Positions 21,609-35,697 of a stretch of DNA of 64,000 nucleotides are shown one piece after another. The notes below the pieces were generated by a model. That model was not told the DNA's origin. It worked only from the letters and a program-made list of their open reading frames with translations, and did not search any database. The translations under genes and the position numbers were made by a program. Numbering within the stretch: position 1 is the first letter of the stretch; each line of letters begins with the position of its first letter. Source of the stretch: an uncultured Lachnospiraceae bacterium. GTDB taxonomy: Bacteria; Bacillota; Clostridia; Lachnospirales; Lachnospiraceae. The stretch covers positions 1 to 64,000 of the forward strand of contig CADAHQ010000008.1 in NCBI GenBank assembly GCA_902787715.1, given 5' to 3'.

Positions 21609-21995
21609 ACTACGGCCCAGGGAGAAGGGTTTCTTCCCTAGGCCGTAGTTGTACTTGTCTACAGTGTGCTGTTACCTCGTTTTCCCCTTAATTTCAAAAG
21701 CGACTACGGCCTATAAAGCAAGTTTCGGTCGCGAGGCCGTAATTGTACCTGTCTATCCCTTGGGGGCAGCTGCTTAACCTTTTTACTATGCAGGGCTACT
21801 ACGGCCTGAAGTCCACTTTTCTAACGTCAGGCCGTAATCCCTTGATTTCAAACCTTCAAAACAAGGTTTTCCACCGACAAGACAGGTAAAGACTACGGCC
21901 TGAGATGCGATTTTGATCTTCCAGGCCGTAGTCCCTCTCTTTCGAAACCCGAAAACAAGGTATTTTCCACCGGGAAGGGGATTTCTCTTCCCGGT
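21609..21995. repeat. Array of four 41-bp palindromes with 94-95-bp period
   Basis: Fills the 643-bp gap 21476-22118 between divergent genes. Palindromes at 21609-21649, 21703-21743, 21798-21838 and 21892-21932 are each exactly 41 bp: conserved arms ACTACGGCC and GGCCGTA(G/A)T around a variable ~21-bp centre. Spacers are 53-54 bp. The spacers after units 3 and 4 are clearly homologous to each other (both contain AAAACAAGGT then TTTTCCACCG, 94 bp apart); those after units 1 and 2 share TGTAC(C/T)TGTCTA. A separate perfect 9-bp hairpin (21969-21995) ends the array, just before a promoter. Confidence 0.85.
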
Positions 21996-25224: not shown

Positions 25225-26217
25225 TTACTTTCTGTACTCGTCAAGCACCTGCTTAAGGAGTTTCGGGTCGTCGGTCATGATGGCGTCGACGCCCTTTTCA
25301 ATCAGCATCCGCATCTCATCCGCATCGTTGATGGTCCAGTACTGAACCGCGATGTTTCTGCGGTGCGCGCGCTTGATGTACGTGTCCCAGGTCAGATTCA
25401 GGGTGATTCCCTTGATATCGTACTCCACCGGAATCTGAAGACACGTAAAATCGACGTCCGCGAACAGATTGACATGGAACAGCTGGGTTACGATGAATTT
25501 GCCGGCGCCTGCGGTGGAACCGCCGCGCATCAGCGTCGGATGCTTCTCGCGCAGATTCTCCTCGATTTCCGGATGGAACGTTCCGATGACGATGCGGTTC
25601 TTGTAATCGGGGAAGCGCTCCGAAAGCGTCTGGTCGATGATGTCCGCAGCCTTGTAACCGACCTCGCCGGGATCCTTAATCTCCACGATGAACAAAAGGT
25701 CTTTGTTCGTCTCGTAAAATTCTTCCATCAACTCATGGAACTCCATAATCTTCAGGCCCAGCTCCTGCTGCTTCTCCTCGGAGAGATCGCGGTAGGGATA
25801 CTCGCCCGTGTCGGGATCCTTGAAGTTGTAGCCCATGTTGTAGGTGCGAAGCTCCGCAAGGGTGTGCTCCGCGATGACAACGTCGGGGTCGCCCTCCTTG
25901 CAGGCCGTCCGGTTGATGGTCTCGTCATGGTTGTACACAAGGTGGCCGTCGCTGGTCATCCAGACGTCGGTCTCGCAAATCTGAATGCCGTACTCGTTCA
26001 CCGCAGCGCGGTAAGCCATCAGCGTATTTTCCGGGTTGCTGACACCGCCGCCGCGGTGCGCCGCAATCATCGGAAGGGCGTCCTCATCCTTCAGGAAAGG
26101 ATTGGTCTCCGCCACCTTCTTCGGCGGAATCACGTTGATCACTACGAAAAATACAACCAACAGCAGCAAAATGCAGCCGAAAATCTTCAATCCTCTGTGC
26201 TTTTTCTTTTCCTTCAT
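25225..26217 (-). CDS. Membrane-anchored glycerophosphodiester phosphodiesterase
   Basis: 330 aa. A Lys-rich N-terminus and one transmembrane helix (about 11-30) anchor a GDPD domain outside the membrane. The catalytic pattern is intact: MIAAHRGGG, NPENTLMAY, ETDVWMTSDGHLVYNHDE. It would hydrolyse glycerophosphodiesters, or possibly teichoic-acid-type polymers, to glycerol 3-phosphate. I chose ATG 26217 because AGGAG lies 8 nt upstream; a longer in-frame ORF lacks a site. Single gene. Confidence 0.92.
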   Translation of the reverse strand: MKEKKKHRGLKIFGCILLLLVVFFVVINVIPPKKVAETNPFLKDEDALPMIAAHRGGGVSNPENTLMAYRAAVNEYGIQICETDVWMTSDGHLVYNHDETINRTACKEGDPDVVIAEHTLAELRTYNMGYNFKDPDTGEYPYRDLSEEKQQELGLKIMEFHELMEEFYETNKDLLFIVEIKDPGEVGYKAADIIDQTLSERFPDYKNRIVIGTFHPEIEENLREKHPTLMRGGSTAGAGKFIVTQLFHVNLFADVDFTCLQIPVEYDIKGITLNLTWDTYIKRAHRRNIAVQYWTINDADEMRMLIEKGVDAIMTDDPKLLKQVLDEYRK

Positions 26218-26335
26218 ACCAACACTCCTGTTTTCATTTGACATCGTCATCAAACATGACTGTTATCATTGTATCAGGTCGCGCGGTTCTGTCAACATTT
26301 TTCGCAGCAAAGGAAAGTTTGCGGCGCAGGAAACA

Positions 26336-27169
26336 CTAAAGAAAAAATCGTCGGATGACAGTTTCAATCTCATTGGTCCCTAATGGATTGGCCGATGTCT
26401 CTTCCGTGATAATCAACTCCTCACCGATAAAGAAACCTTCCCTCGTTAATTCTTTCAATCGCAACACAGCACCTCTCGCATACTCTTTATCATCCATCAT
26501 GCCGCGATGTTCCCAATACAGGACTCTCCTTCTTTTGACATCCAGAACCGTAAAATCAGGATAGACAATTACTCCGCTGCTCAATTGCAACGGACACTCG
26601 TATTTGTACGGGATTCCCTTGTCAGCAAGCGCATTGGCAATATTCAGTTCCGATTTGGACCGGACTCTTTCCTTTCGTTTGGTTTCCCAAAAAGGAAGGT
26701 AATCCGGTATCGCTTTTCCCACATAAGTTTCTTCCATCCATCCCCGAATAAAATCTTCATCCGAAACGTCAACAGGAAGTATCAGTTTTTTCACCTCATC
26801 GGGAAATGCCGAATACGCTTTCCGCACTTGGTTTACGGCATTTTCTGCCTTTTTGAGCAGGATTTGCAGGCCTTGGAGCTCTGTTGTAATGATTTTCAAA
26901 ACCTTTTCATCATAAGCTTTCTGAAGATATTGTTTAATCACAGCCGATTCGGTTTTTCGAATATAACTCCCGGTCCTATCCGAAGCATCCTTGCGCAGAT
27001 AATATTGGACGCCATGCAGCGTCCGGCTTACATGAATCTTCCCCGGCGGCACTTTCTCTAACGCGGCCTCTTTCGATTTCTTGATAAGCAAGAGTTCATT
27101 GAATCGCCTCTTTGCCTCGGAATACAGGCTTGTATAGCTTGTTGTCAGTGTTCTTTTCTGTTTTTTCAT
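26336..27169 (-). CDS. PD-(D/E)XK nuclease-like protein next to a dyad-repeat array
   Basis: 277 aa. The N-terminal ~150 residues are Lys/Arg-rich helices. The C-terminal domain (about 165-277) has the pattern of a restriction-endonuclease fold: SKSELNIANALADKGIPYKYE, then PDFTVLD, then VLYWEHRGMMDDKEY, placing candidate metal ligands at Glu 174, Asp 205 and Glu 220, with His 221 where many members have Lys. Similar C-terminal modules accompany nucleic-acid-handling proteins, but the cellular role is unknown. The gene is more AT-rich than its neighbours, which suggests acquisition. It starts 92 bp from an array of 62-bp dyad repeats, so the array lies upstream in its promoter region. Confidence 0.65.
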   Translation of the reverse strand: MKKQKRTLTTSYTSLYSEAKRRFNELLLIKKSKEAALEKVPPGKIHVSRTLHGVQYYLRKDASDRTGSYIRKTESAVIKQYLQKAYDEKVLKIITTELQGLQILLKKAENAVNQVRKAYSAFPDEVKKLILPVDVSDEDFIRGWMEETYVGKAIPDYLPFWETKRKERVRSKSELNIANALADKGIPYKYECPLQLSSGVIVYPDFTVLDVKRRRVLYWEHRGMMDDKEYARGAVLRLKELTREGFFIGEELIITEETSANPLGTNEIETVIRRFFL

Positions 27170-27261
27170 GATGGACCCCCTTTATAATATACCTTCTTTG
27201 ATTCGCCGCTGCGGCGCGCGCCGCAGCGCACTTGGCCCGCTTTGCCCGCTTGCTTGTTTTT

Positions 27262-27915
27262 ACAGCGGGATTTGAGAAACTGTGATTTCCGCTGTCGTCC
27301 ACGGCCCTCTTGCCCATTTTCATACAGCGGAATTTGAGAAACTGTGATTTCCGCTGTCGTCCATGGCCCTCTTGCCCATTTTCATACAGCGGGATTTGAG
27401 AAACTGCGATTTCCGCTGTCGCCCACGGCCCTCTTGCCCATTTTCATACAGCGGGATTTGGAAAATTGCGATTTCCGCTGTCGCAAATGGCCTACTTGCT
27501 TAGTTTCATACAGCGGGATTTGGAAAATTGCGATTTCCGCTGTCGCAAATGGCCTACTTGCTTAGTTTCATACAGCGGGATTTGAGAAACTGCGATTTCC
27601 GCTGTCGCCCACGGCCCTCTTGCCCATTTTCATACAGCGGGATTTGGAAAATTGTGATTTCCGCTGTCGCAAATGGCCAACTTGCTTAGTTTCATACAGC
27701 GGGATTTGGAAAATTGTGATTTCCGCTGTCGCAAATGGCCTACTTGCTCGATTTCCTACAGCGGGATTTGGAAAATTGCGATTTCCGCTGTCGCGCACGG
27801 CCTACATGCCCTGTTTCATACAGCGGGATTTGGAAAATTGCGATTTCCGCTGTCGCAAATGGTCTACCCACCCATTTTCATACAGCGGAATTTGAGAAAA
27901 GAAGAATTCCGATGC
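27262..27915. repeat. 62-bp tandem dyad-repeat array, ten full units plus a degenerate one
   Basis: Units begin at 27262, 27324, 27386, 27448, 27510, 27572, 27634, 27696, 27758 and 27820, exactly 62 bp apart, with a decayed eleventh at 27882. Each has a 34-bp dyad (ACAGCGG(G/A)ATTTG ... CGATTTCCGCTGT) and a 28-bp intervening segment usually ending TTTCAT. Two linked haplotypes exist: centre GAGAAACTG with intervening CCACGGCCCTCTTGCCCA (units 1-3, 6) and centre GGAAAATTG with CAAATGGCCTACTTGCTTAG (units 4, 5, 7 and variants). The intervening segments are homologous, so this is not a CRISPR array. 62 is not a multiple of three, and reading frames through it are artefacts. Confidence 0.93.
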
Positions 27916-27972
27916 CCCGCAGTGGAGCCAAGCAACGGAGCCCCGCAACGAAGCATCAGGATTCTTCAAAGA
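27899..27972. repeat. Imperfect inverted repeat flanking the array end
   Basis: GAAGAATTCCGATGC near 27899 and GCATCAGGATTCTTC near 27956 pair with one or two mismatches, closing about 40 nt. It lies between the array and the clpB stop (28035); it may help terminate clpB or mark the array boundary. Confidence 0.5.
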
Positions 27973-28034
27973 AAGAAAATAACCAGATAATTACAACGTA
28001 GTAGCATCTCTCCGGCTAAGGCCGTATCGATGCA

Positions 28035-30617
28035 TCACTCCACATACGCCGTGAGGACGCCGTCCACCACATCGATGACGATGGTATCGCCGGCATGGAC
28101 CTGATCCTCGAGGATCATCCGCGCACTCATGGTCTCCGCGTTGGTCTGCAGATAGCGCTTCAGAGGTCTCGCTCCGTAAACCGGATCGTAGGCCTTCTCG
28201 CAGGCGAGGTCGATCGCCGCGTCGGTGAAACGGACACTCACCTGACGCTCATGCAGACGGTCGTTAAGCCGCGCCGTAAGAAGCGTGATGATATTTCGGA
28301 TGTTGTCCTTCGTAAGCGGCTTGAACAGGATGGTCTCGTCGAGACGGTTCAAAAACTCCGGCCGGAAATGCGCCCGCAGATCCCGCATGACCGCATCCTC
28401 CGCCTCAGGCGAAATCGTACCGTCCTCGCGGACGCCGGAGAGAAGATACTCCGAGCCGATGTTGGAGGTCATGATGAGAATCGTGTTCTTGAAGTCCACT
28501 GTGCGGCCCTGGGAGTCGGTGATCCGGCCATCGTCAAGCACCTGCAAAAGCACGTTAAATACATCCGGATGCGCCTTCTCCACCTCGTCGAACAAAACGA
28601 CGCTGTAGGGCTTTCTGCGCACAGCCTCCGTGAGCTGACCGCCCTCGTCGTAGCCCACATATCCGGGCGGCGCTCCGATGAGTCGGGACACGGAATACTT
28701 CTCCATGTACTCACTCATATCGATACGAACCATGTTGGTTTCGTTGTCAAACAAAGCTTCGGCCAATGCCTTCGCAAGTTCGGTCTTGCCGACGCCGGTA
28801 GGTCCCAAGAACAGGAACGAGCCAATCGGGCGGTTCGGGTCCTTGATGCCGGCCTTCGAGCGCATGATGGCCTCGGTCACCCGGGCCACGGCCTCGTCCT
28901 GACCGATGACACGGCGGTGCAGCTCATCCGCCAGATGCAGCGTCTTGTTGCGCTCGCTCTCGTTGAGCTTTGCCACCGGAATGCCCGTCCACTTGGAGAC
29001 AATCTTCGCAATCTCCTCCTCATCCACGGTCTCGTGAACCATGGTATGACCCTTCGCGCGGATGTCCTCCTCCGCAGCGGCAAGCGCCTGCTTAAGCTGC
29101 GGGAGACGCCCGTAGGTAAGCTCCGCCGCCTTGTCCAGGTTGTAGGTGCGCTGCGCATCCGCAATCTGGCGGTTCACATCCTCAATCTCTTCCTTCAACT
29201 TCCGGACGCCCTCCAGCTCCGCCTTCTCGGCGTCCCACTGCGCCTTCGCGGCCTCCCAGTCCTCCCGGGCCTTCGCAAGCTCCTTCTGCAAAGCCTCGAG
29301 ACGCTCGCGACTTAGAGCATCCTCTTCCTTCTTCAGGGCAGCCTCCTCAATCTCCAGCTGCATCATGGAACGCTTCGCCTCATCGAGCTCCGTGGGCATG
29401 GAGTCAAGCTCCGTCTTAATCAGGGCGCAGGCCTCATCCACCAGGTCGATGGCCTTGTCCGGCAGGAACCGGTCGCTGATGTAACGGTTCGAAAGAACCG
29501 CCGCGCTCACCAAAGCGCCGTCGCTGATTTTCACGCCGTGATAAACCTCATAGCGCTCCTTAAGGCCACGCAGGATACTGATGGTGTCCTCCACCGTGGG
29601 CTCGTCCACCATAACCGGCTGGAACCGACGCTCCAAAGCCGCATCCTTCTCCACATACTGCCGGTATTCGTTCAGAGTCGTAGCGCCGATGCAGTGGAGC
29701 TCGCCTCTTGCCAGCATGGGCTTAAGCATGTTGCCGGCATCCATGGCGCCGTCGGTCTTGCCCGCACCCACGATGGTATGCAGCTCATCGATGAAGAGAA
29801 TAATCTTACCTTCGCTGTTCTTCACATCCTCGAGAACCGCCTTTAAGCGCTCCTCGAACTCGCCGCGGTATTTGGCGCCCGCGACCAATGCGCCCATATC
29901 CAGGGCGAAAATACTCTTGTCCTTCAGTCCCTCCGGCACATCCCCCGCGACGATACGCTGGGCAAGGCCCTCCACGACGGCGGTCTTGCCGACGCCGGGC
30001 TCACCGATCAGAACCGGGTTGTTCTTCGTCTTACGGGAAAGAATCCGAACCACGTTGCGGATCTCCGCGTCACGCCCGATGACCGGGTCAAGCTTCTGCT
30101 GCTTTGCGCGCTCCACCAAATCGTAGCCGTATTTGGCGAGGGTGTCGTACGTAGCCTCCGGGTTGTCCGTGGTCACGGCCTTGTTGCCCCGCACCTCCGC
30201 AAGCACCTGCAGGAAACGGTCGCGGTCGATGCCGAAGCTGCGGAACACGCCCGCAAGGTCGCGCCCGCTGTATTTGAGCATGCTTAAGAAGAGATGCTCC
30301 ACGCTCACATAGGCATCCCCCATGGCCTTCGCCTCATCCTCGGCGTACATAAGCGCCTTGTTGAGGTCCTGCGATACAACAAGATTGGCGCCCTGCACCT
30401 TCGGCATGCGCTCAATCAGCCCGCGGACCTGCGCCGTGAAAACTTCCGTGACAATGCCCATCTTCGCGAGCAGTTTCGGGATCAGTCCCTCGCCGTCCGA
30501 GAGCATGGCAAACAGAAGATGCTCCGGCCGCATCTCCGGGTTTCCGTATTCATAACAAACCTTCTCCGCCGCCTGAACGGCTTCCGTCGATTTCTGCGTA
30601 AATTTATTGATGTTCAT
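28035..30617 (-). CDS. clpB: ATP-dependent disaggregase ClpB
   Basis: 860 aa, the normal length. A hexameric AAA+ chaperone that dissolves protein aggregates with DnaK. Clp N-terminal repeats lie at about 1-145, NBD1 carries [13 protein letters not shown], a long coiled-coil M-domain (about 400-525, Lys/Glu/Ala rich) identifies ClpB rather than ClpC, and NBD2 carries [14 protein letters not shown]. No ClpP-binding loop was noted. I chose ATG 30617 because GGGAGGTGAG precedes it; an earlier in-frame start lacks a site. No CIRCE or CtsR box was recognised; an inverted repeat at 30663-30682 lies in the leader. Confidence 0.96.
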
Positions 30618-34251: not shown

Positions 34252-35697
34252 ATGAAACGACAGAGAATTTTCCTGATTGTGACGGCCGTCGTGTTGGTCG
34301 GTGCGGTGAGTGGTCTCGTTTTCGCATTGTCGCAAAGAGACAAGGCAGGGAAAGAGAACACAATCGAGAGTGAGAACAAGAATACGATCGAGAACGAGAA
34401 CAAGAGCGAGAGCAAAAGCGAAAGCGAGGGCGAGAATAAAAGCGAAGGCGCGGGCGAGAACAAAAGCGAGGCCGAAATCAAGATCGAGTACGAGCTCCCG
34501 GAGGTGCCGGAGGGCAGCGTTTTAGTATGGCAGCGAACAGCGGAGTACAAGGATTCTGTTCTTGCGGGCGAATACACGTATGATGAGTACGGCCGCTGTG
34601 TGAAGAAAGAGATGTTTGTCTTCGGATATCCCAATGGGTTAAAGGAAACAACAATCGAGTACGATGAAGTGACTCACCAAACGACAGAAACAAGTCTGCA
34701 CGCATATGATGACGGAAGGATTTATCAAAAAGAATGCCGGGTATATTCCGGGAATGGGGACGTAATCAGCTCCTGCGAATGGAGAGTCGAGGAAGACAGG
34801 TTCGTTAAGTCACTTGAGAATTTCTATGAACCTTCTGCTGACGGAAAGCACGAATACATTGCCAATGTCTGGTATTCCGATGGATATGTCGCGCAAGTGG
34901 AGTGGTGGGAATACAGCGAGGACAGGAGGTCGCGATTCTACAGAAAGGCTGACTTAAAAGGTGCGGGGGAAAAATGCACGGACAATGATGACTGGCCGAC
35001 GATACGGGCAGCGGCAGAACGGAACGGAGTCCTTACAACGGTGGAGGAGTATGACGAACAGGGACGAATCGTAGCGAAGTTTGATGTCTGGAACGACGGA
35101 ACACGCGAGCAGATTGTCGGTACTGCGTATTTTGATGACGGATCAATGAAACAAACTGATCGCAGCGCTGATTACAGCGTCATCTACTCAGTTTATCCGA
35201 ATCTGGTATATCCGGTCAGATACTGGAATGCGCAGGGACGCTTGCTGAGTGAAAACTTTGTGCAAGAAGATACAGGGGAGGTGCTCGAATCCATTGAATA
35301 TGAGTATGAGGAATTGCCCTCGGGAGGGTACAGGGAAAACAGGTACAGTACAAGGGAAGGGGTACAACGTAAGCTGACAGGTTTCTGGGAATACGACAAG
35401 AACGACGCGGAGACCAAGACTGTCGAGATTAACGATGATGGTCGGGAAGTAATTACGCATCTCGTGACGTATGATGATCAGGGCCGGGTAATCCGGGAAG
35501 AATGGCCTTCGCTTGGGGATGATGTGATTGAATGGAAGTACGACCAATACGGGAATTGCGTCAAGATAAAAGACCAGACACTTTGGCGCGGAGGAGGAAC
35601 GACAACGGAATACGTATACACCCCGATTGTTCTGGAGAAGGACAAGGTCGCTTACGCCGAGTCATTTTACGATTTGTTCCGAAATCATGAACCCTGA
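34252..35697 (+). CDS. Membrane-anchored protein with KSE-rich linker and YD-like repeats
   Basis: 481 aa. One N-terminal transmembrane helix (about 6-26) is followed by a low-complexity Lys/Ser/Glu/Asn linker (about 33-78, repeats of ENKSE). The rest contains YD-like strand repeats (YDEYGRCVKKEMF, YDEQGRIVAKFD, YDDQGRVIREEW, YDQYGNCVKIKDQ). Repeat spacing resembles the lipoprotein at 30881, but the anchor differs. I chose ATG 34252, with AAGGAAAA upstream, over an upstream GTG. Codon use is more AT-rich than in neighbours. No catalytic domain; function unknown. Confidence 0.68.
   Translation: MKRQRIFLIVTAVVLVGAVSGLVFALSQRDKAGKENTIESENKNTIENENKSESKSESEGENKSEGAGENKSEAEIKIEYELPEVPEGSVLVWQRTAEYKDSVLAGEYTYDEYGRCVKKEMFVFGYPNGLKETTIEYDEVTHQTTETSLHAYDDGRIYQKECRVYSGNGDVISSCEWRVEEDRFVKSLENFYEPSADGKHEYIANVWYSDGYVAQVEWWEYSEDRRSRFYRKADLKGAGEKCTDNDDWPTIRAAAERNGVLTTVEEYDEQGRIVAKFDVWNDGTREQIVGTAYFDDGSMKQTDRSADYSVIYSVYPNLVYPVRYWNAQGRLLSENFVQEDTGEVLESIEYEYEELPSGGYRENRYSTREGVQRKLTGFWEYDKNDAETKTVEINDDGREVITHLVTYDDQGRVIREEWPSLGDDVIEWKYDQYGNCVKIKDQTLWRGGGTTTEYVYTPIVLEKDKVAYAESFYDLFRNHEP

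Follow-up and report, generated by a model that had tools for sequence, protein, structure and literature searches.

A family of nuclease-like genes in Lachnospiraceae that appears to be paired with arrays of helically spaced DNA dyads

Centromeres of the F-plasmid sopC/SopB type consist of tandem direct repeats that each contain an inverted repeat and lie next to the gene of their binding protein. Type III toxin-antitoxin systems are defined by a repeat RNA upstream of a toxin with the ToxN fold. The RAYT proteins have the HUH fold, and REPIN elements also adjoin the RAYT gene. According to PMC8049555, the RAYT gene encodes a tyrosine transposase and is resident, vertically inherited and single-copy, and the REPINs are dispersed non-autonomous palindromes that form hairpins in single strands and are commoner in genomes with a RAYT gene.

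The locus described here lies in a stretch of 64,000 nucleotides (the window) from an uncultured Lachnospiraceae bacterium, contig CADAHQ010000008.1. It resembles RAYT/REPIN in its resident vertical gene, in dispersed cognate palindromes that are more numerous where the gene is present, and in having elements beside the gene. By the same description RAYT is a single-copy tyrosine transposase and REPINs are single-strand hairpins, whereas our family has a PD-(D/E)XK fold, has up to 7 paralogues and is accompanied by helically phased dyads in arrays; none of the Pfam matches listed for the protein or the family is a transposase model. The likeness to sopC/SopB is that the tandem repeats each hold an inverted repeat and stand next to the gene of a protein that is here predicted to bind them. 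The nuclease fold and the dispersed arrays are different, and a reading by eye of the 14 commonest neighbour clusters turned up no ParA-like gene. The features of the locus are:

26336..27169, minus strand: 277-aa protein, N-terminal half and PD-(D/E)XK nuclease domain (about aa 160-277), from ORF, alignment and model
26720..27169, minus strand: N-terminal half, aa 1-150, with a helix, three short strands and a long helix, from structure models
27261..27900, no strand: array of ten 62-bp units with arms ACAGCGG...CCGCTGT, from repeat and dyad search
27882..27914, no strand: decayed eleventh dyad with outer arm ATTCCGATG, by eye

The ten exact 62-bp units with 34-bp dyads, and the decayed one after them, had been noticed in the letters alone and were borne out, the ten by the repeat and dyad search and the last by eye. 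The array at 27261-27900 has a period of exactly 62, 10.3 copies and 0% indels; its ten dyads, with arms ACAGCGG/CCGCTGT, start at 27262, 27324 and so on to 27820. It sits about 90 bp upstream of the minus-strand gene. Chance is excluded, as the ten dyads are in register and the pattern read backwards occurs 0 times in the whole genome. The linkers are homologous to each other and not unique spacers, as the earlier note had also remarked, and a CRISPR array was rejected on this ground. By eye, units of haplotype A have the core GAGAAACTG and a linker like CACGGCCCTCTTGCCC, units of haplotype B the core GGAAAATTG and a linker like AAATGGCCTACTTGCT, and the order of units 1-8 is A A A B B A B B. 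The proposal of two coupled, interleaved haplotypes holds for these eight units but fails for units 9-10, which by eye have the B core with different linkers, and the coupling between core and linker is therefore imperfect. The outer arm ATTCCGATG of the decayed dyad is the arm of arrays found beside related nucleases (CATCGG/CCGATG, L065 and L066), which may make it a remnant of an earlier arm. In the far flank of another homologue (L165) there is a distant array of five dyads with the same arm CATCGG and 62-bp spacing, possibly a trace of an older specificity.

A perfect 22-bp GC-rich palindrome was seen by eye between the array and the start codon, at 27207-27228. It was rejected as a common part of these loci, as none was seen by eye at that place in the sister genome G002. 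Short-period tandem repeats are present at 2020-2369 and 34355-34469 of the window, and an Rfam search of 26000-28200 gave no match up to E 1.

The 277-aa protein has no Pfam family above the cut-off, no NCBIfam family and no convincing sequence match in the PDB; scattered Pfam matches, limited to one or two of the 67 members and with E no better than 3.8e-5, were dismissed as chance. The restriction-endonuclease-like C-terminus that had been read from the sequence is supported as a PD-(D/E)XK fold by the structure model and by Foldseek. In the model (pLDDT 92.6) a helix, three short strands and a 46-residue helix are followed by the PD-(D/E)XK domain, and the best matches of this domain are DrdV, R2 endonuclease, Bax1, Can2 and FAN1, which are moderate, with a best E of 2.3e-3 (DrdV). 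Sixteen columns are invariant in all 46 aligned homologues, R170, S171, K172, E174, D205, E220, H221 and nine other positions. In the putative active site E-H takes the place of ExK, so that the usual lysine is missing. Rpn and PDDEXK_2 are families of PD-(D/E)XK transposases, but neither Pfam model matches the protein or its family, and membership was rejected on this ground. In PADLOC, aa 162-275 match the C-terminus of the candidate PDC-S68 (E 3.4e-24). The likeness is restricted to the nuclease domain: the PDC-S68 models span about 1200 residues, and the match covers no more than their C-terminal end. The N-terminal half has no recognisable DNA-binding fold, the best matches being coiled-coil proteins such as prefoldin (E 0.4 or worse). 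From the model and the sequence comparisons we infer that this half is a candidate for the arm-reading and dimerisation part. The stretch 26200-26750, which covers the 3' half of the gene and the sequence that follows, is 97-100% identical to G002, as compared to mostly 85-93% in nearby stretches, which is likely the result of a recent recombination. A faster evolution of the N-terminal half in this pair, suspected from the protein alignment, was dropped because the C-terminal half lies in the near-identical tract and the N-terminal half has diverged like the flanks.

The protein family is multi-copy in Lachnospiraceae, with matches in 22 of 61 related genomes, up to 7 in each, and none in 39. 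One of the 22, G043, has six matches of the C-terminal part only. Across a phylum-wide sample of 398 genomes there are matches in 11: the five that belong to the same family match over the full length, the other six in the C-terminal part only. A set of named homologues extends the protein family to Treponema and Murdochiella. Matches on plasmids (seven records) and viral contigs (eight loci) are all to the C-terminal domain; of three phage records two match this part only and one, short and unannotated, covers about 80% of the query. The recurrent neighbours at 127 loci, named by eye from their translations, are ribosomal L13 and S9 (15 loci each), isoleucyl-tRNA synthetase, ComEC and HolA (six each), and the same neighbours are kept across species in groups of 15, 6 and 6 loci. 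A protein tree was built from 123 members. It appears that the gene is resident and inherited mainly vertically, which holds for many loci if not for every paralogue, and a mobile gene is disfavoured because many orthologues keep their neighbours. The six proteins of G043, which is of the same order, share the nuclease domain only (L108-L113), and a dyad run was seen near one of them.

An array beside the gene is not a peculiarity of the window. We counted as an array a run of at least three dyads with a common six-base arm, and as linked an array within 1.2 kb of the gene. In the first set 27 of 47 homologues had a linked array, as compared to 13 of 2000 random anchors in control regions, which take in the remainder of the window and with it the distant array there; the densities were 29 arrays in 107 kb near the genes, 4 in 175 kb of far flank and 3 in 458 kb of control. 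From the 54 places tabulated for this set seven were left out, the fragment L107 and the C-terminal-only matches L108-L113; it is also without the broken G002 gene L114 and a weak broken match in G012 (contig C96), and the broken L066 was kept. The second set, the best 80 of at least 528 confirmed loci, leans towards the clade of its query L031 and is not fully independent of the first (L216 repeats L077, and L165 possibly overlaps with G002). Here 45 of the 80 named homologues had an array beside them, with 48 arrays in 177 kb near and 6 in 346 kb far. The link between array and gene that the earlier note had suspected is thus strongly supported, and so is the conclusion that the pairing is general, with the window as one case. 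The finder left 20 of the 47 and 35 of the 80 homologues without an array; contig ends cut some flanks and weak arrays were missed, and some genes may truly be without one. In most cases the linked array is directly upstream of the gene, and in L032, L078, L089, L095, L104 and others it is found only downstream.

The spacings between dyads cluster at 53, 62-63, 73-74, 84-85, 94 (few) and 106 bp, and one turn of B-DNA is 10.6 bp. In a Rayleigh test of 117 distinct spacings up to 135 bp, pooled from 78 arrays of which related ones are not independent, nR2 was 54.6 at 10.6 bp with phase -0.3, as compared to a maximum of 12.5 in 2000 draws of a uniform control. When the 51-55 class was left out the best period was 10.9 bp (nR2 29.3, phase -3.0). 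Whole-turn jumps are also found inside single arrays (L092, L095, L167 and L221); the spacings in L167, for instance, are 62, 53.5, 53, 53, 63, 63 and 74.5. In Murdochiella, which belongs to another family, arrays with steps of 42-44 and 84-86 bp, four and eight turns, were observed beside homologues (L221, L222). Spacing by whole turns is well supported, and since these are turns of B-DNA, binding to double-stranded DNA is favoured over binding to RNA.

The earlier note had suggested that the array could be a DNA site of the protein, as operator, substrate or target, or else a source of repeated structured RNAs. The RNAs are disfavoured by the 10.6-bp spacing and by folding, in which the two unit types of the window barely outdo shuffled sequences (z -0.31 and -1.97). 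Across ten units folded as RNA, z ranged from -0.3 to -6.8, strongest in dyads of another family. Outside the arms, in sets of 38 and 26 dyads, a left half pairs as well with the right half of another dyad as with that of its own, except for a covariation at positions 8-10, adjoining the arms (p 0.016 and 0.0005). This weak signal makes a short cruciform or hairpin possible. The DNA site fits the evidence best, given the linkage and the helical spacing, and we read the dyads as half-sites of a predicted dimer that binds double-stranded DNA.

The arms differ between paralogues and between lineages. Beside a paralogue on contig C7 of the same genome, G000, there is an array with arm TACGGCC and spacing 94. 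This dyad occurs 40 times in G000 (reversed control 2), in nine arrays of 3-5 dyads and one single, and the window has such an array far from the gene at 26336:

21611..21930, no strand: distant array of four TACGGCC...GGCCGTA dyads, spacing 94/95/94, from dyad search

Its arm and spacing are those of the array of the C7 paralogue, not those of the gene at 26336. Among 22 genomes of the genus TACGGCC is found 40 times in G000, once in G014 and never in the other 20, G002 included. The sister species differs in this arm genome-wide: G002 has 26 TACCGCY dyads at eight places, one set of them beside the syntenic orthologue of the C7 paralogue, whose protein is 53% identical. The search gave 30 pattern matches, four of which look unrelated (reversed control 2), and the spacing is mostly 94 or 74, with 53 and 83 at one place. 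The ACAGCGG dyad of the window array is found 25 times in G000, 3 times in G002 and 0-4 times elsewhere; as 20 of the 25 are in three arrays, its dispersed set is small. A third arm, TACGGTT, was counted in 12 genomes with other arms, with 0 in nine and 1 in three, and in ten genomes picked for having that arm beside the gene, with 2-114 including the linked array; reversed controls were 0-6. There is a clear surplus only in G456, G463 and G464, of which G463 and G464 are close kin, and the genomes with 2-4 dyads show nothing beyond the linked array. Dispersed dyads cognate to the gene are found in G000, G002, G463 and G464, and the matching of arms between gene and array is well supported in G000 and G002 and less widely elsewhere. 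Identical arrays at unrelated intergenic sites had been named by the earlier note as an argument against the pairing, and this came out half true: the same arms do occur there, but this belongs to the pattern, since genomes in which the linked array has a different arm contain few such dyads or none. A partial Mantel test was run over 68 arrays, leaving out L033. The arm followed the N-terminal half given the C-terminal half (r 0.16, p 0.002) and did not follow the C-terminal half given the N-terminal half (r 0.03, p 0.24), with r small and phylogeny only partly controlled. This suggests that arm similarity tracks the N-terminal half of the protein and not the nuclease half.

The distant arrays also differ in position between the sister species. 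Two could be compared; the five dyads at C8:102703 of G002 have none in the aligned gap of G000, and the array at C7:53874 of G000 has no counterpart in G002. Both species have the gene-linked arrays on C8 and C7/C33. Between arrays of G000, linkers of equal rank have a mean identity of 0.38 (n=110), as compared to 0.30 (n=315) for unequal rank. The best linker pairs, 0.65-0.75 identical, are colinear, in some cases with a shift of one unit, and whole arrays therefore look as if they had been copied from one another long ago. The arms are near 1.0 identical between arrays while the linkers drift, although exact arms were the search criterion for the dyads and make the arms seem more conserved than they are.

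Our best explanation, which we hold to be probable if by no means assured, is a resident, sequence-specific nuclease that binds double-stranded DNA and has dispersed cognate arrays, an organisation like that of RAYT/REPIN built from other parts. In this reading the N-terminal half would recognise a half-site of about 7-10 bp, one dimer would sit on each dyad, and the dimers would stack on one face of the helix along the array, the dyads being spaced by whole turns. For every paralogue there would be a separate half-site with arrays to match: one next to the gene and, in those genomes that were inspected in detail, further ones scattered between genes. The gene would stay put and be inherited mainly vertically, and the arrays would gain copies at new sites, degenerate, and switch arm in step with the protein. 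The binding is strongly suggested; nuclease activity is predicted, and a role of the protein in copying, maintaining or dispersing the arrays is the weaker suggestion.

The rival explanations overlap with this one and with each other. The most serious, which we nevertheless find unlikely, is that the dispersed arrays are chromosomal sites of a host binding platform for organisation, segregation, repair or regulation, where the nuclease fold serves binding or rare cutting, and arms and spacing are kept by host selection and not by copying. The conserved arms among drifting linkers would fit, with the same reservation about the exact-arm search, as would genes that keep their neighbours across species. 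The distant arrays moreover lie between genes and are not confined to one gene orientation, judged from longest-ORF calls of which some may be mistaken; this also disfavours a general role as operator only or terminator only. A platform does not explain why both comparable distant arrays are absent at the counterpart in the sister species, nor a dyad number above one hundred in one genome, up to 7 paralogues per genome, or the 16 invariant columns, E174, D205 and E220 among them, which would be expected in an active nuclease.

Somewhat less likely still is that ordinary insertion elements carry the arrays as passive cargo, and that the nuclease does no more than bind them or exploit them to regulate itself. 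In Candidatus Eisenbergiella pullistercoris (G463) most of the 20 places fetched share a 520-bp element with the terminal inverted repeat (TIR) GTTACTTTTCAYGGG, and direct repeats of 8-9 bp flank three of the six copies with both ends in view. Another transposase may therefore have moved these arrays, which in their short TIR elements resemble MITEs; no autonomous partner was recognised among the listed ends. No such element was seen in G000, however, and no shared TIR was found around nine arrays of G000 and eight of G002, in a test that missed two of four TIR-bearing controls; paired inverted words of at least nine bases surround 3 of the 17, all of them different. The array beside the gene of the G463 type (L167) is not listed as matching any of three reference copies of the element, and in G000, G002 and G463 the distant arrays have the arm of the array beside the resident nuclease, which speaks against cargo.

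A defence nuclease that is parked on chromosomal arrays and freed on invasion is improbable: the C-terminal domain matches that of the PADLOC candidate PDC-S68, but the recurrent neighbours that were recognised are housekeeping genes, and inspection by eye of the 14 commonest neighbour clusters revealed no defence gene. An RNA antitoxin, whose transcribed repeats hold the nuclease as in type III systems, has the least in its favour, since the position upstream of most genes and the good folding of some dyads (z to -6.8) are outweighed by the whole-turn DNA spacing, the downstream-only arrays, the dispersed copies far from any gene copy, the poor folding of the window units and a PD-(D/E)XK fold that differs from ToxN.

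To return to the resident nuclease with its cognate arrays, a stronger form of it can be put forward tentatively. Lachnospiraceae may have a two-part system of a resident nuclease of double-stranded DNA, whose N-terminal half reads an address, and helically phased dyad arrays that are rewritten in concert on a change of address, with the nuclease driving copying or conversion; the address would be lineage-specific and carried by a genome-wide population of arrays, and with this same reserve the system may be previously undescribed. No description of such pairs was found in searches of the open-licence literature, which does not imply an absence from print.

The family occurs in gut bacteria. 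If the explanation is true, it would bring a second, unrelated class of enzyme to the concept, known from RAYT/REPIN, of a resident protein that has its own private set of palindromes in the genome. The arms and the whole-turn spacing predict the DNA that each protein would bind, and that shifts by half a turn would break the binding, predictions that are exact and cheap and make a family without a Pfam or NCBIfam name directly testable. The matched sequences of protein and site would also form a natural series, and thereby material for learning how DNA specificity changes.
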